DNA of 64,000 nucleotides. Source: a bacterium. Lineage in GTDB: Bacteria > Bacteroidota > Ignavibacteria > Kapaibacteriales > UBA7675. The stretch lies in the NCBI GenBank assembly GCA_030430495.1, contig JAUIKM010000009.1, positions 70,250-134,249 on the forward strand, written 5' to 3'. Below the pieces are notes generated by a model, which worked only from the letters and a program-made list of their open reading frames with translations, was not told where the DNA came from and searched no databases. Of the stretch, positions 4,275 to 26,764 are shown piece by piece. The stretch's first letter is position 1, and every line of letters begins with the position of its first letter. The translations under genes were made by a program, and so were the position numbers.

Positions 4275-7244
4275 ATGAAAATTTCGACCAATTCGCCTCA
4301 ATCCTCTCTGGCGGCGCTGACCTTTCTGGCGCTTTTCATGTTTGTCCCGCTCCGGGGGCAGGAACTCGCGCGGCCACAGGTGATCGGCCCGCCGGAACCG
4401 CTGCCGAGTGCGCCGTGGCAAGTCCTTTTTGACGAATGGCAGCCGGCCGACGAGCGGATCAGTCGCGACGGCGACGACTTCCTGATTTCAGGAGAGAAAG
4501 TCCGCTTTTTCGGCACCAGCCTGTTCGGCACGGCGGTATTTCCCGACAGCGCGGACGCCGTCGCGATTGCCGAGCGCATCGCCGCACTTGGATGTAACGC
4601 GGTGCGCATCTCGGGCCACGACTTCACCTGGATTCCGGACGCATCCATATTCCAGGGGCCGCAGGAATCGCAGACAACTCAACTGAACGAAGAACGCATG
4701 CGCCGTTTTGACTGGCTGATTTATCAGCTGAAACAGCGCGGCATTTATATCAGCCTTGTGCTCCAGAGTTATCGGCAGGCGCTGCCGGGCGACGGCGTGG
4801 ACGGATGGGAACAGCTGCCCGGGCAGCTGCGCGTGGTGAAATTCATCGATCCGCAGATAGAACAGCTGGACAAACTGGTGGCGGAGCGCATCCTGGAACA
4901 CGTCAATCCCTTTACGCAGACCGCGTATAAAGACGAGGCGGCGCTGGCCTGGCTGGACGTCACGGAAGACAAGTCGCTCTTCAACGCCTGGGGCTCCGGG
5001 CTGTTCAATCCCGGCTCGATTTTGAGCGATCACTACCGCGACATGCTGCGGGAGCGCTGGCACGAATTCCTGCGCGACAAATACGGCGACGACGCAACGC
5101 TCAACGCCGCCTGGTCAACGACGCCTTCAAGCACGGCCAACCAGGTGAGCAATCCCGGTTTTGAGGACGCCTTTTCGCCCGAATGGCAATTGATTGTTGG
5201 CGAAGGCGCGCAGGCCGTCGCCGATCCGTTTTCCAGCGACCGCGCCGAGGGCGAGCTGGCGATGCGCATCCGCATCAACCAGACCGCCAGCCAGATCGGC
5301 CTGATCCAGTTGCGCAACAGCAGCATCCCGCTGGAGCGGCATCAACTGTACAAACTGACATTCCAGGCCAAATCGGCCGAGGCCGCGCAGACAATCGCCG
5401 TGCACCTGATGAATCCCGCGCCGCCATATCAGCAGTACGGCCTCAATTTTGTGCCGGTGGACATCACGACGGAATGGGACGAGTACACACTCACCTTCCG
5501 CTCCACCGACAACAATGAGCTGGGCGCGCTGCTGATTTTCCTGATGGGCGGCACGGAAAACGACGTGCTTTTTGACGATGTACAACTGCGCATGCTGGCC
5601 GAGAACGGCCTGGCCCAGGGCGAGACGCTCGAAGGCGGCATCGCCCAACCCGCCCCGACGGGAATCACGCTGATTCCCAAAGAGCGCCTGGGCGACTACA
5701 TGGAATACCTTACTTCTTTGATGAAAAATCACTACGAGCGCATGCGCTCGTACGTGCGAGACAACATTGGTTCCGAGGTGATGCTCGGCGCACCGACGAT
5801 TTCGACGGTCGTCAACGACGTCTATGCACAGTCGGGCATGGATTACACGGCCGTCAACGCCGGCTGGGACGGCGTGCGCGAGAACGGCACGCCGAACTGG
5901 TACATCGACAACACCAGTTCGCTGGCGGTGCCCTGGGGCGGCCTGGCGACTCTGGTAGCACGCGGATCGATGCTCGACAGGCCGCATGTGCTTTCGCGCC
6001 TTTTGTATCCCTTCCCGAGCGCGCATCAGCACGAGGCGCTTTCGGCCTGGCCGGTCTACGCCGCTTATCAGGATTGGGACGCCTACTTTACCTGGACTTT
6101 TATCTCATCGCGCGACAACTGGGACGCGCCGAATATTCCGCTCAACGACTACTACAGTTATGCCAATCTGCCGCACATGGTGGCGCTGATGCCGTCGGCC
6201 GCGGCGGCGTTCCGCTACGATCTGATTGCCGAGGCGGAGGACGACGTTGCGGTGGAGCAAACGGCGGAAGCGCTGCGCTACCCGCCGCTTCAGAACGGCC
6301 TGTACTGGATCGAGAGCGATACGGATCCGCGTTTGCCGCTCTTCCGGCGCGTGGGCATCGCCAATTTTGACGCCGACTTCCAGACGCGCAGTCCGCAGCT
6401 CGACATCTTTGAACTGTCCGACGGCAACGTCAATACGAGCGACCTGCGCAGCGACACGCGTGAAATCAGCTGGAATGCCGACGATGCTTACCTGACTGTC
6501 AGCGCGCCGAAATTCAAATCGGTATCCGGCCAGTTCAGCGGCGAGTTGATTGAGCTGGATGAACTTTCGATTATCAGGCAGGACGAGGGCCTGTCGGGCG
6601 CGATCACCTGGATCACGCTGGACCGCGAGCAGACTCTGGCCGCGGCGGACCGCTCGTTTCTGACGATCTGCACGCGCACGGTGAACGAAGGCGCGGTGTG
6701 GAATGCCGAGGCGAATTCCATCGCAATGAACTGGGGCGAGGGCCGCGTCATGATGGAAAGCATGCGCGCCGAGTTGATTCTGGAGAGCGAGCGCGACACG
6801 ATGATTGTGACGCCGCTGGACATGGGCGGCCGCCCGCTGGTGGAACCGGGACCTGTCGCCGTAGCCAACAGCGGCGGATTCTTCCGCATCACCATCGACC
6901 AGAACGCGATGCCGGCACTGTGGTTCGGCGTTGAAATGCGCGACGCCAAAACCACGAGCGCCGCCGAAGACAACGCGGTGGAAAACATGCCGACGCTACA
7001 CATTCTGTCCGAGCACCCTGTGCGGAATCACGCTCTGCTTGAAGTGCGCGCAGGGTTTGACGGGCCGTTCAGATTGAAACTCGTCTCGATGATGGGCGCT
7101 GAAGTGGCGGCGGCCGAAGGATATGTGGCCGGCGGCGCGGATGTGGTGCGGCTGAACACGCGCGGCCTGGCTTCCGGCGCATATGTGCTGCAACTGCAGA
7201 CCGCTTCCGGCGCAGCGACGCAGGCGCTGATCGTTGAACCTTAA
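4275..7244 (+). CDS. Secreted glycoside-hydrolase-like protein with T9SS sorting domain, probably non-catalytic
   Basis: 989 residues from the ATG at 4275, chosen because it starts a good signal peptide (SLAALTFLALFMFVPLRGQ); the frame is open further upstream without one. After the signal comes a clan GH-A-like TIM barrel with the KVRFFGTSLFG entry motif and YKDEAALAWLDV. A carbohydrate-binding-like jelly roll is inserted at about residues 290-450 (SNPGFEDAFSPEW ... LFDDVQLRM). The barrel resumes to about 650, and a T9SS type A sorting domain occupies the last ~85 residues. In related enzymes the acid/base sits in a TNEN-type motif and the nucleophile in an SEYNxPxP-type motif. Here these read TEDK (residues 230-233) and SRLLYPFP (Arg575), so catalysis is doubtful. 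The next gene is a full-length paralogue. It may be a cell-surface glycan-binding protein. Confidence 0.75.
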   Translation: MKISTNSPQSSLAALTFLALFMFVPLRGQELARPQVIGPPEPLPSAPWQVLFDEWQPADERISRDGDDFLISGEKVRFFGTSLFGTAVFPDSADAVAIAERIAALGCNAVRISGHDFTWIPDASIFQGPQESQTTQLNEERMRRFDWLIYQLKQRGIYISLVLQSYRQALPGDGVDGWEQLPGQLRVVKFIDPQIEQLDKLVAERILEHVNPFTQTAYKDEAALAWLDVTEDKSLFNAWGSGLFNPGSILSDHYRDMLRERWHEFLRDKYGDDATLNAAWSTTPSSTANQVSNPGFEDAFSPEWQLIVGEGAQAVADPFSSDRAEGELAMRIRINQTASQIGLIQLRNSSIPLERHQLYKLTFQAKSAEAAQTIAVHLMNPAPPYQQYGLNFVPVDITTEWDEYTLTFRSTDNNELGALLIFLMGGTENDVLFDDVQLRMLAENGLAQGETLEGGIAQPAPTGITLIPKERLGDYMEYLTSLMKNHYERMRSYVRDNIGSEVMLGAPTISTVVNDVYAQSGMDYTAVNAGWDGVRENGTPNWYIDNTSSLAVPWGGLATLVARGSMLDRPHVLSRLLYPFPSAHQHEALSAWPVYAAYQDWDAYFTWTFISSRDNWDAPNIPLNDYYSYANLPHMVALMPSAAAAFRYDLIAEAEDDVAVEQTAEALRYPPLQNGLYWIESDTDPRLPLFRRVGIANFDADFQTRSPQLDIFELSDGNVNTSDLRSDTREISWNADDAYLTVSAPKFKSVSGQFSGELIELDELSIIRQDEGLSGAITWITLDREQTLAAADRSFLTICTRTVNEGAVWNAEANSIAMNWGEGRVMMESMRAELILESERDTMIVTPLDMGGRPLVEPGPVAVANSGGFFRITIDQNAMPALWFGVEMRDAKTTSAAEDNAVENMPTLHILSEHPVRNHALLEVRAGFDGPFRLKLVSMMGAEVAAAEGYVAGGADVVRLNTRGLASGAYVLQLQTASGAATQALIVEP

Positions 7245-7367
7245 AGCGTCGGAGGGAATCGGCGGGCAACATTCCGCGGCGGGGCGATTGCCTTGTGTGA
7301 AAAAATTTGCTAGACTTCCATTTGGCTTCAGTTTTTTCCTGCCCCTTTTTCGCTCTGGAGAGTGCCG

Positions 7368-10337
7368 ATGGTTCGCCTGACTTTTCTGCTAGTTTTGGTG
7401 TTGACAGCCGCTGTGGTCGTATCGCCGGCCCAGACCATGCAGTCCTCGTTTCCCGTATCTGTTCCTCCATTGACAGAACTGAACGACGTACCGCTGCTGC
7501 TGGCAGAACCCGGCGTGGAAATTACCGAGCGCATCAGCGTCAGGGACGGGCACTTCGTCAAACCGGACGGCACGCGCATGCGTTTCTTCGGCACGACGCT
7601 CTGGTATTCGGGCGCGTACCCTGACAGCGCGGAGGCCGTTCTTATGGCGCGGCAACTGCGCAGCTACGGCATCAACGCCGTGCGTTTTAATCTGCACGAC
7701 TATTCCACGTGGACGGTCAGCACCTTCCTGAGTCCCAACGCCGAGCGCTTTGAGTTGAGTGAAAGCCAGATGGCGCGATTCGACTGGCTGATGTACCAGT
7801 TCAAACTGAACGGCATCTACGTGCACTTTGCGCTGCATTCGCGCCGCACGGCCGGCCGCAATGACGCGGTGACCAACTGGGACACCATTCCGGGGCTGCA
7901 GCGCGGCGTGATCTACTTTGATCCGGAACTGAAGGCGGCGCAGCGCACCGTGACGCGCAACCTGCTGACGCACAAAAACCCGCACACGGGCCTGCAGTAC
8001 AAGGACGACCCGACGCTCGCTTTTCTGGATCTGGTTGACAACAACTCTTTTTTCTGGGTCTGGCGCACTTACGGCTTTGAGCCTTATTCCTACGATCGAT
8101 TTTCCTACTATCACTCGCGGCTGCTGCACGCACAGTGGGCCGACTACCTACGCAAAAAATACAAGACGGACCAGGCGCTGAACGCGGCCTGGAGCCGTAA
8201 AGCGACCGGCGCACGCAATCTGATCAGCAGTCCGGGTTTTGAGGATCCGTTTTCAACAGACTGGACGCTGAACGTCAACGGCGGCGCGCAGGCGGCGCTC
8301 GACCCGTACGAATCCGAAAGTTTCAAGGGCGAACTGGCGATGCGGGTGCGCATCGGCACGCCGGGCGGAGCTATTACCAACGTCCAGCTGCGCAACACGA
8401 GCATTGTGCTGGAAGCCGATCGCCTGTACGAAATCGCATTTGCCGCGCGCACGATGTCGCAGTCGGCCAAAACGATCAGCCTGTATCTGACGAATCCGGC
8501 GACGCCTTACAACAACTACGGCATTAACAATGTGCGTTTTCAGGTCATGCCCGAGTGGCAGAAATTCTCATACAAATTCCGCAGCACCGACGACAACGAA
8601 TTCGGCGCGCTGCTGCGCATCATGTGCGGCCAGCAGGCCGGCGATCTGGTATTTGACGACTTCGACGTGCGCATGATCGACGAGGACGGACTCGTAGCGG
8701 GCGAAACGCTGCGCGACGATCAGATCGGCTTTGTGCCATACGGCGAGCTGGCGCAGTTCTCGCAGGCGCGCGTGCACGAAAACATCGAGTTTTTTAACAA
8801 ACTGGTACAGGATCACTTTGAGAGCCTGCACCTCTACATCCGCGATACGCTGGGCTGCGACGCGCTCGTGACGGGCAACAACACGTCTTACATGCTGAAC
8901 GACCTGTACGCTCAGCGCAATCTGGATTTCAACTCGGTGATTCTGAGCTGGGATTACGTCCGCAACTCCGGCACGGATGACAACTGGTTCGTCAGCAATG
9001 TGGGCATGCTGCAGAACACCAACGGCGGCAACATCGCCTACGCCTCGCGGAATGCTGCGGCGGACAAGCCGATGGTCATCTCCCAGATGGTGATGCCCTT
9101 CCCGACGATGCACATGAACGAGATGCTGACGGTCTGGCCGGCCTACGCCAACTACCAGGACTTCGACGGCCTGTATGTAGGCATGTACTCGGACAGCCGC
9201 GACGCGATGTACGCCGACAGCATCCGCTTTAAAAACTGGTATCATACGACGACCAACCCGGCGTTTATGTCGTTGCTGCCGTCCGCCGGATACGCCTTCC
9301 GCAACGGCCTGGTGCGGCCTGCGGAACAGGAGATTCTGCTGGAGCAGACGCCGGACGCCCTGCTGCGGCCCACGCGCCAGGCGAGCAATTACTTTCTGGA
9401 GAGCTCGACGGACAACCGCCTGCCGCTGTTCCGCAAGACGCGCCTGGCGACGTTTGACGCTGACTTCCAGACTTCCTTCCCGCAACGCGACGTCTTTGAG
9501 CTGTCCAACGGCGACGGTGTAAACACCTCGGCGATGGAGAGCGACACGGAAGAATTGTTGTGGAACGCCGATGACGGCTACATCTCGATCAATACAGAGC
9601 GTTACAAAGCGGTCAGCGGCATGTGGTCCGGCGAATTTCTGGAACTTGGCGAATTGACGGTAAACCGCATCGACGCGGCGCCGGTGGGAACTTTTACGTG
9701 GATCAGCCTGGACGCGGACGCGATTGAAGAAGCGGACGAGTCGATGATCACAATTTCCTCGCGCGCCGCCAATACGGATGCAGTCTGGCGCGACCGGCCG
9801 GACGCCGGCGTGGACCTGACGGGCGGCTGGGGCACGGCCCCGACCGTCGTTGAAGCGCTTGAAATGGAGTTCCTGCTGGTCAGCGAGCGCGACACACTTC
9901 TGCTGACGCCGCTGGACAAGCTGGGCAATAAAAACGGCGAGCCGCGCATCATCGAGAATACGGCCGGCGTCTTCCGCATTCGCATCGATCAGGCCGACGA
10001 GCAGGCGCTGTGGTTCCACGTTGAGCTGCGCGACAAGGAAGAAACCTCGACGGACGTGAGCGACGCCGCGACGAACAGACTGGAGCTTTCAGCTCCCTGG
10101 CCCAACCCGGCCGACGCGCGCAGCCAGGTAATTGTGCGCGGCGACGGCAGCGGCGCAGACCTGACGCTCGAACTCGTGTCGGTACTCGGAACGCGGCAGA
10201 ACATCTGGTCCGGCAGATCGCAGGAGACGGCGCAAGTCGTGGCGGTGCCGCTCAACGAACTGGCAAGCGGCGCTTACAGACTGGTGCTGCGCAGCGGCGA
10301 CGCGGTAATATCGCAGCCGCTGAACGTCAGACGATAG
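7368..10337 (+). CDS. Secreted glycoside-hydrolase-like protein with T9SS sorting domain, paralogue, probably non-catalytic
   Basis: 989 residues, the same length as the upstream paralogue and colinear with it throughout. The ATG at 7368 has a GGAG 7 bp upstream (7357-7360) and opens a signal peptide ending near VSPAQ. The barrel starts at RMRFFGTTLWYSG. The position of the acid/base motif reads LDLVDNNSFF (Asp224-Asn225-Asn226) and that of the nucleophile VISQMVMPFP (Gln573), so neither catalytic Glu is present. An inserted carbohydrate-binding-like domain begins at SSPGFEDPFSTDW. The C-terminal sorting domain carries an APWPNPADARS start and ends in LNVRR. Cell-surface or secreted location is expected. 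A glycan-binding or structural role is inferred; no ligand can be named. Confidence 0.75.
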   Translation: MVRLTFLLVLVLTAAVVVSPAQTMQSSFPVSVPPLTELNDVPLLLAEPGVEITERISVRDGHFVKPDGTRMRFFGTTLWYSGAYPDSAEAVLMARQLRSYGINAVRFNLHDYSTWTVSTFLSPNAERFELSESQMARFDWLMYQFKLNGIYVHFALHSRRTAGRNDAVTNWDTIPGLQRGVIYFDPELKAAQRTVTRNLLTHKNPHTGLQYKDDPTLAFLDLVDNNSFFWVWRTYGFEPYSYDRFSYYHSRLLHAQWADYLRKKYKTDQALNAAWSRKATGARNLISSPGFEDPFSTDWTLNVNGGAQAALDPYESESFKGELAMRVRIGTPGGAITNVQLRNTSIVLEADRLYEIAFAARTMSQSAKTISLYLTNPATPYNNYGINNVRFQVMPEWQKFSYKFRSTDDNEFGALLRIMCGQQAGDLVFDDFDVRMIDEDGLVAGETLRDDQIGFVPYGELAQFSQARVHENIEFFNKLVQDHFESLHLYIRDTLGCDALVTGNNTSYMLNDLYAQRNLDFNSVILSWDYVRNSGTDDNWFVSNVGMLQNTNGGNIAYASRNAAADKPMVISQMVMPFPTMHMNEMLTVWPAYANYQDFDGLYVGMYSDSRDAMYADSIRFKNWYHTTTNPAFMSLLPSAGYAFRNGLVRPAEQEILLEQTPDALLRPTRQASNYFLESSTDNRLPLFRKTRLATFDADFQTSFPQRDVFELSNGDGVNTSAMESDTEELLWNADDGYISINTERYKAVSGMWSGEFLELGELTVNRIDAAPVGTFTWISLDADAIEEADESMITISSRAANTDAVWRDRPDAGVDLTGGWGTAPTVVEALEMEFLLVSERDTLLLTPLDKLGNKNGEPRIIENTAGVFRIRIDQADEQALWFHVELRDKEETSTDVSDAATNRLELSAPWPNPADARSQVIVRGDGSGADLTLELVSVLGTRQNIWSGRSQETAQVVAVPLNELASGAYRLVLRSGDAVISQPLNVRR

Positions 10338-10549: not shown

Positions 10550-11116
10550 ATGAAGCGCAAATACAGTCAACATACTGACCTGGAACTCTTCAATACCTTG
10601 AAAGAGAACACCCATGTCTCCGAGCTCGCGTTCGGGGAACTGTACGCGCGCTATAATCAAAGGATTTACGCCTACTGTCTGCGTGTTACGGGCAACCCTG
10701 ACGAAGCCCGCGACATCTTTCAGGACACCTTTTTGAAATTTTACAAGAGTGCCAAAAGTGACCGCGAGGTATCAAATGTGCCCGGATACCTGCTGACGAT
10801 AGCGCGCAATCTCTGCCTCAATTTCAAGCGCGATCGCAAGGATACGGTGGCATTCGAAGATTACCATAAATCGTATCGGAATGACGGGTCCTACGAAAAG
10901 AAGGAATACCTGGAACTGATACGGAGCGCTCTTGAGCTTCTGGACAAAGACCACAGGGAAGCCTTTATACTACGGGAATATCAAGGCATGTCCTATGCGG
11001 AAATCTCCGATGTAACCGGAGTCAGTGTTTCCGCACTTAAAAACCGGGTCTGGCGCGCCAAGGAAAAAATTAAGAAGATCCTTTCGCGCTACGTGGCCGA
11101 AGTATCCAAACTTTAA
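10550..11116 (+). CDS. ECF-type RNA polymerase sigma factor
   Basis: 188 residues from the ATG at 10550 (AGGG just upstream); the frame also has a GTG at 10514. Region 2 is evident in FGELYARYNQRIYAYCLRVT followed by NPDEARDIFQDTFLKFYKS. Region 4 is a helix-turn-helix, YAEISDVTGVSVSALKNRVW, with a basic tail. There is no region 1 or 3, as in extracytoplasmic-function sigma factors. The next gene, 17 bp downstream, has an anti-sigma-like N-terminus and a membrane helix, so the pair is likely a regulator and its membrane-bound partner. Target promoters are unknown. Confidence 0.92.
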   Translation: MKRKYSQHTDLELFNTLKENTHVSELAFGELYARYNQRIYAYCLRVTGNPDEARDIFQDTFLKFYKSAKSDREVSNVPGYLLTIARNLCLNFKRDRKDTVAFEDYHKSYRNDGSYEKKEYLELIRSALELLDKDHREAFILREYQGMSYAEISDVTGVSVSALKNRVWRAKEKIKKILSRYVAEVSKL

Positions 11117-11133
11117 TTGAGTGATCCCGAGTA

Positions 11134-12513
11134 ATGTCCTACTCAGATTTAATACATCGCTATTTCGAAGGCGAGCTTGAAGGCGAGGAATATCTGGAGT
11201 CCGCGCTCTTCAATGAACTCCACACCAATCCGGAGGCCCGGCAGGACTTCCGCGATATGCTGCAAATCCGGTCACTGTGTCAGGAAGATATGGTGAGCAT
11301 CACGACGCCTTCGGAATGCACCACGACTGTTTTTGCGCAACTGGGATTCCAGATTCCCTCCGCCGCACAGCAGAGCGCCGCGGTAGCCGCGACGGCAGTC
11401 CGCTTCGCCGGTCTGCGTCGCATGGCCTCGTATCTGTTGACGGCCGCACTGGCTTCGGCATTCACCGCCGCCGCCTTCCTCTACATGCAGCCCGACGACG
11501 CCAATGAGTTCAGCAGCGCCGGCAGCGCTCCGGCTGAAGAACTCAGCAGCAACCGCAGGATTGAGCTGGACGAGATGCCGACGGCGCCGGAAAACGTTCC
11601 GCCGGTGGTTTATTCGTACAGCGAAGAATCCGTGGCCGACGGCACGGCGCAACACGCCTTCCGGCAGAATGCGCAGGCGGCGGCAGGAACAACAACCGCC
11701 GCGGACGGCGGACAGACGGGTACGGTGGAACACACAGACGACAACGGCGCAGCGCCGGTCACAGCACAACGGCAAGCGCCTCTGCTGGGCGATGCTTCCA
11801 TGCCGGCGTCGGCCGTGTTTGGACAAAACACTGAAGCGGCGGCGCAGGACGCGCAGACCGAATCGCTGATCGAAACAATTTCTTCCGCGGCGGCACTCGA
11901 CGGCAAACTGCCTGCGGGCGCGGCGGCGGTGCAGGACGGCAACGCGCCGCGCGGTTTTGCGATCGCGGGCATCGACCTTTCTATGCTCGAAAACAAGCGC
12001 ATCCGCGTCAGCTTCCGCCGCATCTCCTCGAACTCGTCATTTGCAACGGACGTCGTCGAAAGCCCGAGCGGCAATACCTTCCTGCTGGACAACGCCATCG
12101 GCGTCAGTTATCAGTTTGACGACTACAACGCTTTCGGCGTCGAATTCGGCCAGGAAATCTACGGCCAGGAATTTGCGACGGAATACCGCGGTCTGCCCGG
12201 CGTGCCGATGCAACAGCGCCCGGCGCTGTACTGGATCGGCGTCAACCACCGCTACGATCTGAACGCTTTCCTGGAACTTCCCGACGATCTGAAGCTGTTC
12301 GAGCAGACCTTGCTCGGCGCGCACAATGCCGGTTCCGGCGCTTTCACGGGCGGCATGGTTCGCGCGATGTTCGGCGCCGAATACACGGTGATGCGCAGCC
12401 TTACGCTCAGCGCGGCGCTGGAATTCAGCGGCATCAGCTACAGCACGGCTGTCAGCGCAATGGAATTCAGCTACAATACGGGCTTCACGTATGGCATTTC
12501 CTACAAGTTCTGA
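11134..12513 (+). CDS. Anti-sigma-like membrane protein with C-terminal outer-membrane beta barrel
   Basis: 459 residues with an unusual order of parts. Residues 1-90 are acidic and soluble and resemble a cytoplasmic anti-sigma segment (YSDLIHRYFEGELEGEEYLE), but without a HxxxCxxC zinc site. One hydrophobic helix lies at about 97-118 (ASYLLTAALASAFTAAAFLY). Residues 120-285 are low-complexity, rich in Ala, Thr, Gln and Glu, and could span the periplasm. Residues 288-459 show alternating amphipathic strands (IRVSFRRIS, AIGVSYQF, YWIGVNHRY) and end in FTYGISYKF, a typical BAM-recognised C-terminal strand with terminal Phe. It lies 17 bp after the sigma factor and is followed at once by a lipoprotein gene. 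The anti-sigma role is inferred from position and layout. Confidence 0.7.
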   Translation: MSYSDLIHRYFEGELEGEEYLESALFNELHTNPEARQDFRDMLQIRSLCQEDMVSITTPSECTTTVFAQLGFQIPSAAQQSAAVAATAVRFAGLRRMASYLLTAALASAFTAAAFLYMQPDDANEFSSAGSAPAEELSSNRRIELDEMPTAPENVPPVVYSYSEESVADGTAQHAFRQNAQAAAGTTTAADGGQTGTVEHTDDNGAAPVTAQRQAPLLGDASMPASAVFGQNTEAAAQDAQTESLIETISSAAALDGKLPAGAAAVQDGNAPRGFAIAGIDLSMLENKRIRVSFRRISSNSSFATDVVESPSGNTFLLDNAIGVSYQFDDYNAFGVEFGQEIYGQEFATEYRGLPGVPMQQRPALYWIGVNHRYDLNAFLELPDDLKLFEQTLLGAHNAGSGAFTGGMVRAMFGAEYTVMRSLTLSAALEFSGISYSTAVSAMEFSYNTGFTYGISYKF

Positions 12514-12514
12514 C

Positions 12515-13174
12515 ATGGACCAGCCGCTTCGGCGGATGCGCGGCACGATTCTGTTCGCCCTGCTGCCGCTGTTGATGCTGGTCCTGTCCGCCTGCGAACT
12601 TGCCGAGGATGTCAACGCACCGCGCGTCATCGACGACCCTTATATCGTCGATAATGTCACGTTCCGCCGGGCCGTGTTTCAGGTATCACAGCCCGGCGAT
12701 CCCGTCGATCGATTTTTTGACCTCAACCTCAAACTCGAGCAGGAAGTCACGATCGACACATCGGCCTCACCGCCTCTGGTTAAACTTTCGATCCGCTACC
12801 GCCGCGCTCCCAACTCGCTTATCAACTCCGACGACTCACTGGCGCGCTACTGGCTTGACGAATTCCGCTTTACGACGGACTTTTTACCGGCCGACAACAG
12901 CATGATCACGAGCCGGATGGAAAACAGCGTCGAAACTGCGCTGCCCTGGACATTTGAATTCCGCGAATGGAACCGCGACCAATCCATCGCATTCAACTCT
13001 TCGGACGCCGGCACGCCGGGCAATTTCAGCCTGCGCCTCAACGATTTCCGCGGCGCGCCGAACAATCCCGTCAAAACGCGCATCATCGAAGCCCAGGCGG
13101 ACTTCGAAACGACGATCGGCAACCAGACTGTGCACGTCACCGGCAGCTTCGACATCGACTACGCCGCATTCTGA
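12515..13174 (+). CDS. Lipoprotein of unknown function in the sigma-factor operon
   Basis: 219 residues. The start at 12515 is one base after the preceding stop (TGAcATG), implying translational coupling; an upstream in-frame ATG at 12491 would overlap the previous gene. A type II signal peptide ends in the lipobox LSAC (Cys at about residue 27), so the protein should be lipid-anchored. The mature part is beta-rich with no cysteine-rich or catalytic motif that I can recognise. Position suggests a periplasmic or outer-membrane partner of the barrel-containing anti-sigma-like protein. No named family was recognised. Confidence 0.72.
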   Translation: MDQPLRRMRGTILFALLPLLMLVLSACELAEDVNAPRVIDDPYIVDNVTFRRAVFQVSQPGDPVDRFFDLNLKLEQEVTIDTSASPPLVKLSIRYRRAPNSLINSDDSLARYWLDEFRFTTDFLPADNSMITSRMENSVETALPWTFEFREWNRDQSIAFNSSDAGTPGNFSLRLNDFRGAPNNPVKTRIIEAQADFETTIGNQTVHVTGSFDIDYAAF

Positions 13175-21430: not shown

Positions 21431-21850
21431 ATTGTGTCAGGCAGTTAATTATTCGCAAGCAACAATTGACATTCTCGAATGATTTAGCGAACTTCTCACG
21501 TCTTTTGGAGCACAGCGCGGCCGGCTGTTCCGCGCCCAAACAAGACACGAGACAAGCGGACCTCAACGGTACAACAAAACGAGAGACATTTGTATCGATA
21601 GATTACTACGGATTCATCTGCTGATATCTTGATCGAACGCGGCGTGCATTCGACGCCGCAAATCTCGTCCGCTGAACTTTCGCTTCACTCAATGTATCGA
21701 TCGACCCGCCGGATCGATACGTCGACCGCAGAGCCGCCACGCCTGATTGCTGTTGGCCCGCTCTGTTTCGACCGACTACGTCCGAACCTGTCCTGGGCGA
21801 CTTTTTTCGGGAACCTGAGCCCCTGCGTCTCTCAACAATGGGACCAAACT
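21431..21850. other. Intergenic region upstream of the giant secreted protein
   Basis: 420 bp. The downstream reading frame is open from 21629, but this part lacks a signal peptide and the true start is at 21851. No strong hairpin or recognised regulatory motif is visible. Confidence 0.45.
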
Positions 21851-24800
21851 ATGCAAAGAAGCTTATTGACTTCTTGTCTGCTTCTGTGTCTGGCGGCAAC
21901 ATTCGGCATCCAAAGTTTGACGGCGCGTACCATGTACGAAGGCCGTCATTTTTACGTGGGTTTCATGCAAAATGAAGTCAAAACCCGCGGAATCTTTGTC
22001 GAACAGTTGATCATATCAATCTCGATTTCCACCAGCAAAGCCACAAAGGTGCGCCTGAGATCGCCTTTGTTTGCAGGTGAATTCAACTGGAATCTGCCGG
22101 CCAACTCAGTAAAAACGCACTTCTTTGACGCCAACGGCGAAATTGCGCAGGCCGGCGCTCCGCTCGACAAACTATTTGAAATCATTTCCGAAGAACCCGT
22201 CGTCGTCAGTGCGATGAACGCGCGCTCGACCTCGTCGGACGCCATGGCTATCCTGCCGGTGTCGACCTGGGGCAAGGACTACGTTATTGCCTCGATGCCC
22301 TGCGACAGCTACGAATACTCGCCTGAGTTGGATCCGTCCGAACAGCGAGTGCTCTACGAATTGCACTGGGGAACGCCGCGGCCCGGACAGTTTCTGGTGA
22401 TGTCCGCCGAAGACGGCACGACAGTGGACTTCACGCCCAGTTGCAATACCAGTTCGGGCCACGTTGCCGGTCAGACCTATTCGATGGTGCTGGATGAAGG
22501 CGAATGCCTCCTGCTGCAGGCCCAGGGCGGGCCGAACGGTACAAACGACCTGAGCGGAACGCACGTCCGCGCCGACAAAAAAATCGGCGTCATATCCGGC
22601 CACGTGCGCACGTCGATCCCCAACTGGATCAAATTTCCGATCATCAACAACGAGCCGCAGGACACCAAGGACCACCTGTGCGAGATGCTGCACCCGATTC
22701 GTTCCTGGGGCCGCGAGTACGTGTCCGTGCCCTTTTTCAAGGACATATCGCTCGGGGACCACTTTCGCGTTTACGCGGCCGAGCCGAACACAACCGTCAC
22801 GCTGAGCGACGGCACGACTTCCCGCAGCATCACGATCAACAATCAATACGGCGTCGCCGATCTGGCGCTCATCGACAAACCGACGGTCTGGACCGCCGAC
22901 AAGCCGATCATGCTGGTGCAGCACATGTACACGTCTTCGGCCATTCTGCGGATGACGACCGATCCATGGACGCACGGAATCGCCTATGATCCGGCCATGG
23001 TTGTGTTACCTGCGCGCGAGCAGTTTGTCAACACCATCAACTTCCAGGCTCCGCCGACGACCAACCTGACGGCCTATCACGTGCTTGTGACGGTCAACAT
23101 CGCCGGCCTGAGCAACGCACGGCTGAACGGCAAACTGCTTATTACGACCAATCCTGAACTGACCAACCAGCGCATTCCCGGTACGGATCTGTTCTGGGTG
23201 AGCGTGGATATCGATGCGGAAGTGCAGTACATCCTCGAAACCGAGGGCAAGCTTGCCGGGGTGATCTACGCCAACGGACAGCACGACTCATATGCTTTTC
23301 CGCTTGGCACCTCGCTGATCGACCTGAAAAATCCGGACATTGTACCGCCGGTGATTTCCGACGAGGGCAGCGACTACAAATGCGGCCGCCTGCGCGGCTG
23401 GATTCTGGACCAGGGCCACGACCAGGCCGGCATCGCCCTGATTGAGATCAACGAAGAAACGACGGTCAATTTCAACTGGAATATTGCGCCGGTTGAAGAC
23501 TCCACGCACTATGTGACCTTCAACGCCAATGTAGTGGACCCAATGCTGCCGGGACGCATTGAGTACACGGTGACGGACCTGAGCGGCAACACCTCGACCT
23601 ATGAGTACGATTACACGCCGCCGTCCTTCGACGCGCCGACAAATTTTGTTTTTGAGGCCTCGGCGTTCGGCGACCGCGACTGCCAGCCCTACGTGCTGCG
23701 CAACACGGGCAGCGAAGAAATGGTGATCCGCCGCGTCGGACCTTCCGGCGACGTGCGCATCAGCACGCCGGACCTGCCGGGATTCCCCATCCGCCTGCAG
23801 CCGAACGAAACGCTTGAGTTTTTGGTCTGCTACACGCCCAACGGCGAAGCCGACGAACTCTCCGGCCGCATTTTTGTGGAATTTGACTGTCAGGGACGCT
23901 ACTGGGTCGACGTAGAAGGATTTGTGGAAAAACCGCTGATTCGCAGCATCGGCTACAACTTTGGCGAAGTGCGCGTGGGCGATACGGTCTACGCCGACGT
24001 CAAGGTGCTGAACCCCGGCAATGTGCCGCTCGTCGTCAACGGCTTCGACTGTTTCCCCTGCCCCGGCGTATTCCGCTTCCCCGACAATCCATTTCCCTTT
24101 GGGCTGGCCCCGGGCGACACCGTCGAAGTACGCGTCTGTTTCTCGCCGGACAAAACCGACTTTTTCCGCGGCGACTACGAGGCCGCCAACGACCGCGCGC
24201 TGGAAAACGAATTCCTGATTACGGGCACCGGCATTGAGCCGGACATTCTTATCGGGGGCGTCGACTGGCGCGAGCGCCGCGTCGGCACCAGCCACGATTC
24301 AACGGTGACAATTACGAACGACGGCAGCGCTTCGATCAAACTGGTGGACGTGACGCTGGTGCAGCCTTCGGTCTTCAGCCTGGATGCCACGGCGGCGATC
24401 GGCCTGACGCTCGAACCCGACCAGTCCGTTACGCTGCCCGTCAACTTCTCGCCCGATCAGCGCCAGGACTTCAGCGAATTGATTCAGGTGACGACTGACT
24501 GGGCCGTGCGGCCGCAGGTAACGGCCAGTCTGCGCGGTATCGGCACCATGCCGGCTATCGAGCCGATCGACATCGACTTTGGCCTGGTCAAAGTCGACGA
24601 CACCAGCACGCTGACGCGCCCGATTTTCACGGCCGGCGGCAACGAAGAGTTGACGGTTGATCTGATGAAATTCGACGATGAGTCGCAAACATACTTTACC
24701 ATTGACGCGGCCCGCTTTTTCCGTGCCGACCGCTTCGACGTGGGTGCGCAGCACGTCGTGGAAGCCTCATTCACGCCCGACTCCATCGGACCGTTTGAGA

Positions 24801-25924
24801 CGCTCCTGCGCGTGGTGCACGACGCCGCGGCGGCCTACCGGCGCGACACGACCTGGGTCCGACTGATCGGCGAAGGCTACCGGCGCGACACAATTGATTC
24901 CGATGTCATTTTTGACGTGACAACTGAGCTCTTCGCTTGTCTGGATAATTCGACAAAAGTGCGCGTCCACAATCCGGGCAACGTCCCGCTTGAAATCGAG
25001 GCACTTGAAATCGAAGCGGATGCGGCCCTGGATGCGCGCTGGACCGATCAACAGAGTGTCCCGCTGAGCCTTGCAGTTGGAGAAGAGCGCGACATCGCGC
25101 TGTCAATCCTGCCCCAGCGCAGCGGTACATTCAGCATGAAAATCCGCGTAAGGGCGCAGAATGGCTACGAAGCGGAATTCGACACGCAAGTGGAGGTCCT
25201 GCGCGCAAAGCTCGACATAACTTTTGACGAACAGAGCAACGAGGGGCACAGAGTATATCCGGGCGAAGAAATCCCGCTCAAATTCGGCGGGACAATTACA
25301 GGAGGCCCGAGCGTACCTTTCCAGTTTTCGATGGAATTGCGATACAACGGCAGTTCGCTCAGACCGACCATCAATGCGGGAACGCTGGTGCTGACCGACG
25401 CGATGAATCAGGAGATTGTCCTGCCGTTGATAGTCGAAGAAGAATGGGGCATCACGCGGATCTATGCGGACGAAACAGTGGATCTGATCCTGCCGGCGCA
25501 ATGGCGCGCCGAGGCGCCTTTCCTTGCCTACCTGGATCCCCTGCCCCAGCCCAACATGACGGTGCACGTCGCCGAAACGCCATGCATGGCCGGCAGCGAC
25601 GAGCTCATTGAAATCAATCTGAATGAAGTCTGCGCGAACCTGGTCCGTTTTATTACGCTCGTTCCCAGATTATCGGTGACAATTGCGCCCAATCCGGCGT
25701 CTCATGAAATAACGCTGCTGTACGATGCTCCCGAGGATCAAGAAGTTACCGTATCGCTGACAAATGTTCTGGGCCGTTCACCCGTTCATAAAAAGAAAAT
25801 ATTCTTGAAAAAAGGTGAACATTCTTATAAATTAAGCTGCTCAGACTTCCCTGGCGGTATGTACTCGGTGACAATTCGCAGCGGAACCAAAGTACAACAA
25901 CAATCCCTTATCATTAATCGGTAG
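21851..25924 (+). CDS. Giant secreted protein: IgGFc-binding N-domain, choice-of-anchor/ASH repeats, T9SS tail
   Basis: 1357 residues from the ATG at 21851, which opens a signal peptide (SLLTSCLLLCLAATFGIQS). Residues ~30-430 match the IgGFc-binding-protein N-terminal domain, with GRHFYVGFM, AILPVSTWGKDYVIAS and IRSWGREYVSVPFF. After a link region come several ASPM-SPD-2-Hydin-like beta domains, seen from recurring NPGNVPLVV, DTVEVRVCFSPD, TITNDGSASIKL and HNPGNVPLEIE. A T9SS type A sorting domain occupies the last ~85 residues (VTIAPNPASHEITLLYD to the end). Such proteins are large cell-surface or released adhesin-like molecules in Bacteroidota. It is followed after 9 bp by an outer-membrane barrel gene. 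No ligand can be inferred from sequence. Confidence 0.85.
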   Translation: MQRSLLTSCLLLCLAATFGIQSLTARTMYEGRHFYVGFMQNEVKTRGIFVEQLIISISISTSKATKVRLRSPLFAGEFNWNLPANSVKTHFFDANGEIAQAGAPLDKLFEIISEEPVVVSAMNARSTSSDAMAILPVSTWGKDYVIASMPCDSYEYSPELDPSEQRVLYELHWGTPRPGQFLVMSAEDGTTVDFTPSCNTSSGHVAGQTYSMVLDEGECLLLQAQGGPNGTNDLSGTHVRADKKIGVISGHVRTSIPNWIKFPIINNEPQDTKDHLCEMLHPIRSWGREYVSVPFFKDISLGDHFRVYAAEPNTTVTLSDGTTSRSITINNQYGVADLALIDKPTVWTADKPIMLVQHMYTSSAILRMTTDPWTHGIAYDPAMVVLPAREQFVNTINFQAPPTTNLTAYHVLVTVNIAGLSNARLNGKLLITTNPELTNQRIPGTDLFWVSVDIDAEVQYILETEGKLAGVIYANGQHDSYAFPLGTSLIDLKNPDIVPPVISDEGSDYKCGRLRGWILDQGHDQAGIALIEINEETTVNFNWNIAPVEDSTHYVTFNANVVDPMLPGRIEYTVTDLSGNTSTYEYDYTPPSFDAPTNFVFEASAFGDRDCQPYVLRNTGSEEMVIRRVGPSGDVRISTPDLPGFPIRLQPNETLEFLVCYTPNGEADELSGRIFVEFDCQGRYWVDVEGFVEKPLIRSIGYNFGEVRVGDTVYADVKVLNPGNVPLVVNGFDCFPCPGVFRFPDNPFPFGLAPGDTVEVRVCFSPDKTDFFRGDYEAANDRALENEFLITGTGIEPDILIGGVDWRERRVGTSHDSTVTITNDGSASIKLVDVTLVQPSVFSLDATAAIGLTLEPDQSVTLPVNFSPDQRQDFSELIQVTTDWAVRPQVTASLRGIGTMPAIEPIDIDFGLVKVDDTSTLTRPIFTAGGNEELTVDLMKFDDESQTYFTIDAARFFRADRFDVGAQHVVEASFTPDSIGPFETLLRVVHDAAAAYRRDTTWVRLIGEGYRRDTIDSDVIFDVTTELFACLDNSTKVRVHNPGNVPLEIEALEIEADAALDARWTDQQSVPLSLAVGEERDIALSILPQRSGTFSMKIRVRAQNGYEAEFDTQVEVLRAKLDITFDEQSNEGHRVYPGEEIPLKFGGTITGGPSVPFQFSMELRYNGSSLRPTINAGTLVLTDAMNQEIVLPLIVEEEWGITRIYADETVDLILPAQWRAEAPFLAYLDPLPQPNMTVHVAETPCMAGSDELIEINLNEVCANLVRFITLVPRLSVTIAPNPASHEITLLYDAPEDQEVTVSLTNVLGRSPVHKKKIFLKKGEHSYKLSCSDFPGGMYSVTIRSGTKVQQQSLIINR

Positions 25925-25933
25925 GAATTCCTT

Positions 25934-26764
25934 ATGATCAAGAAGATGCTCCGGCTTTGTATCTTCTGCGGACTCCTGACCTTGTCCACGTTTCCCGAGC
26001 TTCTGGCACAAAACGAATCGACCCCGATTATGCCTGCTGCTCAACCTCCGCGCATCTACGTTGGTCCCATCGTTGGATTCAACCAGAACTTCCACAGTGG
26101 TGGATTTACCTCGTTCGTCGCGGACGTCAACTGTCCGAACTTCCGTTCGGGTAATGCGACTGGTTTCTACGTGGGCGGTAGTTTTGAGTATCTGCTTGGA
26201 GATCCCGAAGACGCTCGTTCGTCTATCCTCGCTCGCCTGACCTATGACTCGCGTCCGGCGTCCTTTGAAGAAGAAGATACCGAGTACCCGGTACTTGTGG
26301 TCACGCCAGAAGATCCCGATGGCACGGTGATCTTCCCCGTCGTGAATCACTCCGCGGAAATCGACTACAACATGATTAACCTTGACATCATGTACAAACT
26401 GATGATCGGCAACACGCGTGTCGGCATCATGGTCGGTCCCGCTGTCGGTATGGTGATGGACGCCAACGTCCAGCAAATGTTCAACCTGGTTTCGCCGCTC
26501 GAAGCTCAATTCAAGCCCGACGAAAACACGGACTTCAAGTACGAAAACGACTTCCGTACCATCGTGATTCGCGATGGTGAAGTGCCCGACGCCGCCGGCA
26601 TCCGTGTCGGTGTCAAAATCGGCGCACTCTACGAACTGTCGCTGTCCCGCTTCATCGTCGTTCCGCACGTGATCTATGACTTCGGTCTGACGAAAGTCAC
26701 GACCAACGAAGATTGGCGCGTTAACGCCTTCCAGGCCGGCGTCGATGTTCGTTTCGCTCTCTGA
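25934..26764 (+). CDS. Outer-membrane beta-barrel protein
   Basis: 276 residues with a signal peptide ending at LLAQ (about residue 25). The rest alternates strands such as RIYVGPIVGFNQNFHSG, ATGFYVGGSFEYLLG, TRVGIMVGPAVGMVMD and VNAFQAGVDVRFAL. This is the pattern of small outer-membrane barrels, here with a C-terminal aromatic strand. It starts 9 bp after the giant secreted protein with AGGA before the ATG, and a strong terminator follows, so the two form an operon. It may help display or anchor the partner, but this is inference from adjacency. Confidence 0.78.
   Translation: MIKKMLRLCIFCGLLTLSTFPELLAQNESTPIMPAAQPPRIYVGPIVGFNQNFHSGGFTSFVADVNCPNFRSGNATGFYVGGSFEYLLGDPEDARSSILARLTYDSRPASFEEEDTEYPVLVVTPEDPDGTVIFPVVNHSAEIDYNMINLDIMYKLMIGNTRVGIMVGPAVGMVMDANVQQMFNLVSPLEAQFKPDENTDFKYENDFRTIVIRDGEVPDAAGIRVGVKIGALYELSLSRFIVVPHVIYDFGLTKVTTNEDWRVNAFQAGVDVRFAL

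Follow-up and report, generated by a model that had tools for sequence, protein, structure and literature searches.

A secreted tandem pair of GH5-like putative pseudoglycosidases in the Kapaibacteriales, probably maintained after a single ancestral loss of the catalytic nucleophile

The gene pair and its catalytic columns

The window, that is, the whole stretch of 64,000 nucleotides analysed in this study, encodes on its forward strand two adjacent secreted proteins of 989 amino acids each, P1 (4275..7244) and P2 (7368..10337). P1 is interpreted as a pseudo-GH of GH5-like, clan GH-A fold and P2 as its paralogue; the two share 40% identity over 940 columns, and a spacer of 123 bases separates their genes. 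No homologue of the P1/P2 barrel was found elsewhere in their own genome, where the remaining matches were the sorting tails of other proteins, and scans for promoters and terminators gave chance-level results only.

The initial annotation had proposed that both proteins lack both catalytic glutamates, and the translation places the residues it cited exactly where they were claimed to be: TEDK at 230-233 (4962..4973) and Arg575 (5997..5999) in P1, VDNN at 223-226 (8034..8045) and Gln573 (9084..9086) in P2, all on the forward strand. Alignment with intact relatives confirmed that both glutamates are gone in both proteins; the acid/base column is still acidic in P1, where it holds Asp232, and is occupied by Asn225 in P2. 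The Asn-Glu acid/base pair of barrel strand 4 is represented by Glu231-Asp232 in P1 and by Asp224-Asn225 in P2. Arg575 and Gln573 fall in the nucleophile column at the end of strand 7, both in that alignment and in the structural models. The strand-6 site of P2 is altered as well, Ser523, Ile525 and Ser527 (8934..8948) replacing the Asp, His and Tyr that are invariant in intact relatives.

Domain architecture and predicted fold

AlphaFold2 models built from a 39-row family alignment reached a mean pLDDT of 90.6 for P2 and 88.1 for P1. They begin with a helix where a signal peptide would lie and continue as a (beta/alpha)8 barrel, which is followed by a large and then by a small, C-terminal beta-domain; a CBM4-type beta-sandwich sits inside the barrel between strands 4 and 5 (residues ~286-445 of P1, 5130..5609; residues ~284-438 of P2, 8217..8681). 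CBM4 modules headed the Foldseek matches, followed by GH5 mannanases and mannosidases (8gf3, 4qp0, 1uuq, 7odj). GH5 enzymes were also matched on sequence by the family profile as far as the acid/base site, and in the profile of the intact relatives the NE motif aligns with ELANEP of GH5 mannanases. Structure prediction, which had been suggested as a check on the first reading, therefore gave a GH5-mannanase-like barrel for both proteins, and together with the profile matches it upholds the assignment to clan GH-A.

Against Pfam, the barrel of P1 scored 12.5 bits with PF00150 (gathering threshold 23.5) and 14.1 bits with PF02449 (gathering threshold 21), and that of P2 had no match. A profile search of the PDB using the C-terminal half of the intact relatives' barrel also found no match, so the nucleophile assignment is based on the intact relatives and on strand position. 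The insert of P2 scored 31.0 bits with CBM_4_9 (cut-off 25.9) and that of P1 slightly below the cut-off at 23.8; the CBM4 fold is retained in the family, 38 of 39 members matching at E 0.01.

P1 and P2 share with the GH5 beta-mannanases and mannosidases (8gf3, 4qp0, 3pz9, 1uuq/7odj) a common barrel fold, recognisable on sequence in the N-terminal half and with the NE column aligned, but lack the catalytic Glu pair and carry in addition the CBM4 domain within the barrel, the beta-domain and a T9SS-type tail. The same whole architecture was seen in unassigned GH5-like clan GH-A proteins with a CBM4 insert and the motifs TNENS and SEYNHxxPN (L072-L079, L116 and others), which have the full catalytic set, whereas members of the window's clade never do.

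Loss of the catalytic residues

Intact relatives of this TNENS/SEYNH type occur in the same class outside the order, in Armatimonadetes, Planctomycetia/Thermoguttaceae, Lentisphaerae and others; a search of 123 genomes of the order and of the window's own genome found none. Invariant in the 26 intact relatives are the strand 2 Arg, the strand 4 Asn-Glu, the strand 6 Asp/His/Tyr and the strand 7 Glu. The last of these, the nucleophile, is present in 26/26 intact relatives and in 0/44 aligned homologues of the window's clade, which argues against chance loss, and it is also absent from 12/12 further members of the order that were read at the nucleophile column. The alignment of homologues called for by the earlier reading thus extends the loss to the whole clade. 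Other positions, each invariant in the intact set, have survived in a minority of the 44 clade homologues: the acid/base Glu in 13, the Asn preceding it in two, the strand-6 Tyr in two and the strand-6 His in one, the alignment of strand 6 being uncertain for about ten members of family f2 that have a gap there.

Could P1 and P2 still be glycosidases whose nucleophile has been misaligned or has moved? The acid/base Glu kept by those 13 members, neither P1 nor P2 among them, would fit such a reading, which is nevertheless very unlikely: the strand-7 stretch contains no Glu in either protein, the other catalytic-site residues are gone too, and hhalign joined the intact and pseudo profiles over 929 columns (E 4.5e-151) without any shift of the site. 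The loss of both catalytic glutamates instead points to a non-enzymatic role, and P1 and P2 are predicted from their sequences to be biochemically inactive.

Two minor observations concern individual records. L100 and L106 share a very similar nucleophile-less protein (SDLTS / VEGYGHIFPN) in records that are labelled Chlorobiota and Armatimonadetes; one of these labels may be wrong, or the gene may have been transferred. In L156 and L158 (G431 and G049), the enzyme-profile match crosses one in-frame TAG, upstream of or inside the frame.

Distribution and ancestry

Dozens of full-length homologues, often in tandem pairs, were found in 61 genomes of the order. The family was present in 47 of 123 genomes of the order, and whole families were without it. 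In a profile scan of genome contigs with a 14-row alignment, named records with the family were metagenome assemblies of Candidatus Kapaibacterium, Kapabacteria and Ignavibacteria, which marks the window as Kapabacteria-type. Viral contigs held no relatives, and plasmids gave weak partial matches only, at about 24% identity, in Ensifer/Sinorhizobium.

After removal of the CBM insert and of the catalytic positions, 413 columns of the barrel from 68 proteins were used for a maximum-likelihood tree. All 42 nucleophile-less proteins formed one clade (support 100/100), and the tree required one change at the nucleophile and seven at the acid/base site. The nucleophile was thus lost once, in an ancestor of the window's lineage, and only the acid/base site varied repeatedly. 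P1 and P2 group with their orthologues in a related genome (100/94), indicating that the pair was duplicated after the nucleophile loss. Independent losses in the two copies, as had first been proposed, are excluded by the single clade and single nucleophile change, the pair being a later duplication within a clade that was already nucleophile-less.

Tandem pairs have at least three separate origins: one in the window's family, one in G252 (100/99) and an earlier one in families f4/f9. The intergenic gaps in G252 and f4/f9 are tiny or negative, suggesting co-production of the two proteins.

Selection and newly fixed features

Divergence of P1 and P2 is too great for estimates of dN/dS, which were therefore taken from close relatives in the clade. 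Close pairs gave values of 0.04-0.16 in both barrel halves and 0.04-0.12 in the CBM; the sorting tail, where it allowed the calculation, gave 0.17-0.68. With an overall value of about 0.1, the proteins of the pseudo clade are maintained by purifying selection rather than encoded by decaying genes. The reading that these genes are heading for loss could draw on the absence of the gene from several families of the order and on the long branch of P1 (0.96, compared with 0.36 for its orthologue). It is nonetheless the most improbable of the alternatives, being contradicted by the selection test, by full-length open frames in nearly all clade members, by the repeated formation of tandem pairs and by the fixation of a new motif.

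That motif, DxRxPLFR, lies after the barrel (DNRLPLFR at residues 682-689 of P2, 9411..9434; residues 684-691 of P1) and is confined to the pseudo clade, its key residues being present in 38-40 of 44 members and absent from the intact relatives. In the comparison with the intact group, the mean identity of the post-barrel segment is elevated relative to the barrel.

The scaffold residues G75, P85, G101, N103, G149, N204 and F475, invariant in the enzymes, were retained in 40-42 of 42 clade members. The entropy at the catalytic columns is high in the clade (about 1.9-3.3 bits), and the residues at the dead site differ even among orthologues of the pair (Gln573 against Arg, Asn225 against Val). 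Conversion of the barrel to another catalytic function, served by an active site elsewhere, is improbable in our view. In its favour are the strong purifying selection, the near-invariance of Asp111, Asp166, Asp172 and Asp600, and the recurrence of Trp528 and Asp529 on strand 6 in 28/44 and 31/44 members. However, no new polar set has been fixed clade-wide in the pocket, where the catalytic columns are among the variable ones. The invariant Asp residues were considered as a new active site and rejected; they are equally conserved in intact relatives of the class, which marks them as ancestral and probably structural.

The CBM4 cleft and sugar binding

The cleft-lining Trp, a residue with an established sugar-stacking role in CBM4 modules, occurs in 8/8 of the close intact relatives and 1/42 of the clade members; P2 has Thr337 (8376..8378) and P1 Gly342 in this column. 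The insert has the same fold as known CBM4 (CBM_4_9) modules such as the Rhodothermus xylanase CBM4-2 and the Lam16A CBM4, but differs from them in this replacement, which affects 41 of 42 members.

It had been suggested that P1 and P2 serve as glycan receptors displayed by the T9SS. In that case polysaccharide would still be bound by the dead barrel, the CBM4 domain or both, as in chitinase-like lectins. The non-enzymatic part of that proposal agrees with the lost catalytic residues; the receptor part is weakened, since further losses affect the Asn preceding the acid/base residue, Asp/His/Tyr of strand 6 and the Trp of the CBM4 cleft. A glycan-binding role is possible but somewhat doubtful. 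It is favoured by the near-universal CBM4 fold and the lead of CBM4 structures in Foldseek, by partial retention of the cleft (Tyr381 of P2, Tyr385 of P1) and by the frequent binding of glycans by known pseudoglycosidases (PMC7828330). On the other side, the stacking Trp is almost always missing, the Tyr381 column in the second aromatic loop is gapped in 10/44 members, the residues of the catalytic pocket are not constant even among orthologues of P1 and P2, and no glycan-degradation genes were seen adjoining the pair. With both ancestral sugar sites dismantled, a glycan receptor is not favoured, and we infer that function may have shifted to surfaces other than the old sugar sites.

Export

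Both proteins end in a weak match to the T9SS type A sorting domain (residues ~905-989 in each; 6987..7241 in P1, 10080..10334 in P2), scoring 17.3 and 17.0 bits, below the cut-off of 23. The tail of P1 resembles other tails of its own genome, in which a PorU-type sortase (872 bits) and SprA (935 bits) are encoded along with at least 150 T9SS sorting tails, and 22 of 39 family members match PF18962. Export by the T9SS, as in the initial annotation, is thus probable from the machinery and the family as a whole, the tails of P1 and P2 being weak when taken alone.

Proposed role and known pseudoglycosidases

Taken together, P1 and P2 are probably maintained pseudoglycosidases with a single ancestral loss that act non-catalytically as structural or partner-recognition proteins of the cell envelope. 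The ancestor would have been an exported GH5-like beta-glycosidase carrying an inserted CBM4 domain, whose retaining catalytic machinery was lost once in an ancestor of the lineage. The dead protein would then have kept its fold and its export by the T9SS, ending up on the cell surface or outside the cell, with P1 and P2 acting as a pair from one tandem locus without catalysis. It may act through surfaces away from the old sugar sites, namely the beta-domain, the DxRxPLFR segment after the barrel and the outer face of the barrel, as suits a structural or partner-recognition protein rather than a receptor working through the ancestral sugar cleft.

Pseudoglycosidases are already known as a kind, and include YKL-39 (GH18), klotho (GH1) and CyRPA (GH33) (PMC7828330). 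Like P1 and P2, these are inactive descendants of glycosidases that have been retained, and klotho has inactive GH1-like repeats in tandem. They differ in being eukaryotic and of other families, whereas the P1/P2 family is bacterial, order-wide, GH5-like, probably T9SS-exported and without an intact paralogue in the genome. More tentatively, and by analogy with klotho, the order may have swapped a secreted glycosidase for a dead, T9SS-exported, tandem-encoded hetero-pair that recognises a partner by new surfaces. No description of the P1/P2 pseudoglycosidase family was found in the open literature, and the family is apparently undescribed so far. Described pseudoglycosidases are mostly single eukaryotic cases. 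An order-wide clade with the dead form alone, alongside an intact sister clade, allows direct tests of how an enzyme became a non-enzyme and of what the dead fold was later used for. Moreover, automatic labels such as cellulase, GH5 and CBM4 would inflate the count of polysaccharide degradation functions for this lineage.

Gene neighbourhood

Directly downstream of the pair (10550-13171) lie a gene for an ECF-type sigma factor and two genes for proteins without a Pfam match; the first two of these, the sigma factor gene and the one after it, also accompany the pseudo-GH in G001 and G002. At 21692-26761, some 11 kb downstream from the pair, the window encodes an IgGFc_binding/ASH-domain T9SS protein together with an outer-membrane beta-barrel-like gene, and genes of the same two kinds adjoin the pseudo-GH in family f4 (L045, L053). 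A putative PorV/PorQ-like outer-membrane protein, judged by eye from its sequence pattern, is encoded at 227-1180, and its conserved counterparts in G002 and G011 also lie close to the pair. Five loci of family f2 (L041, L042, L043, L044 and L052) have the pseudo-GH directly 3' of, and in the same orientation as, a DUF1501 gene with a T9SS tail. A DUF1800 gene usually adjoins the DUF1501 gene at the f2 loci, and a DUF1501-DUF1800 pair of unknown function has been reported (PMC5122149).
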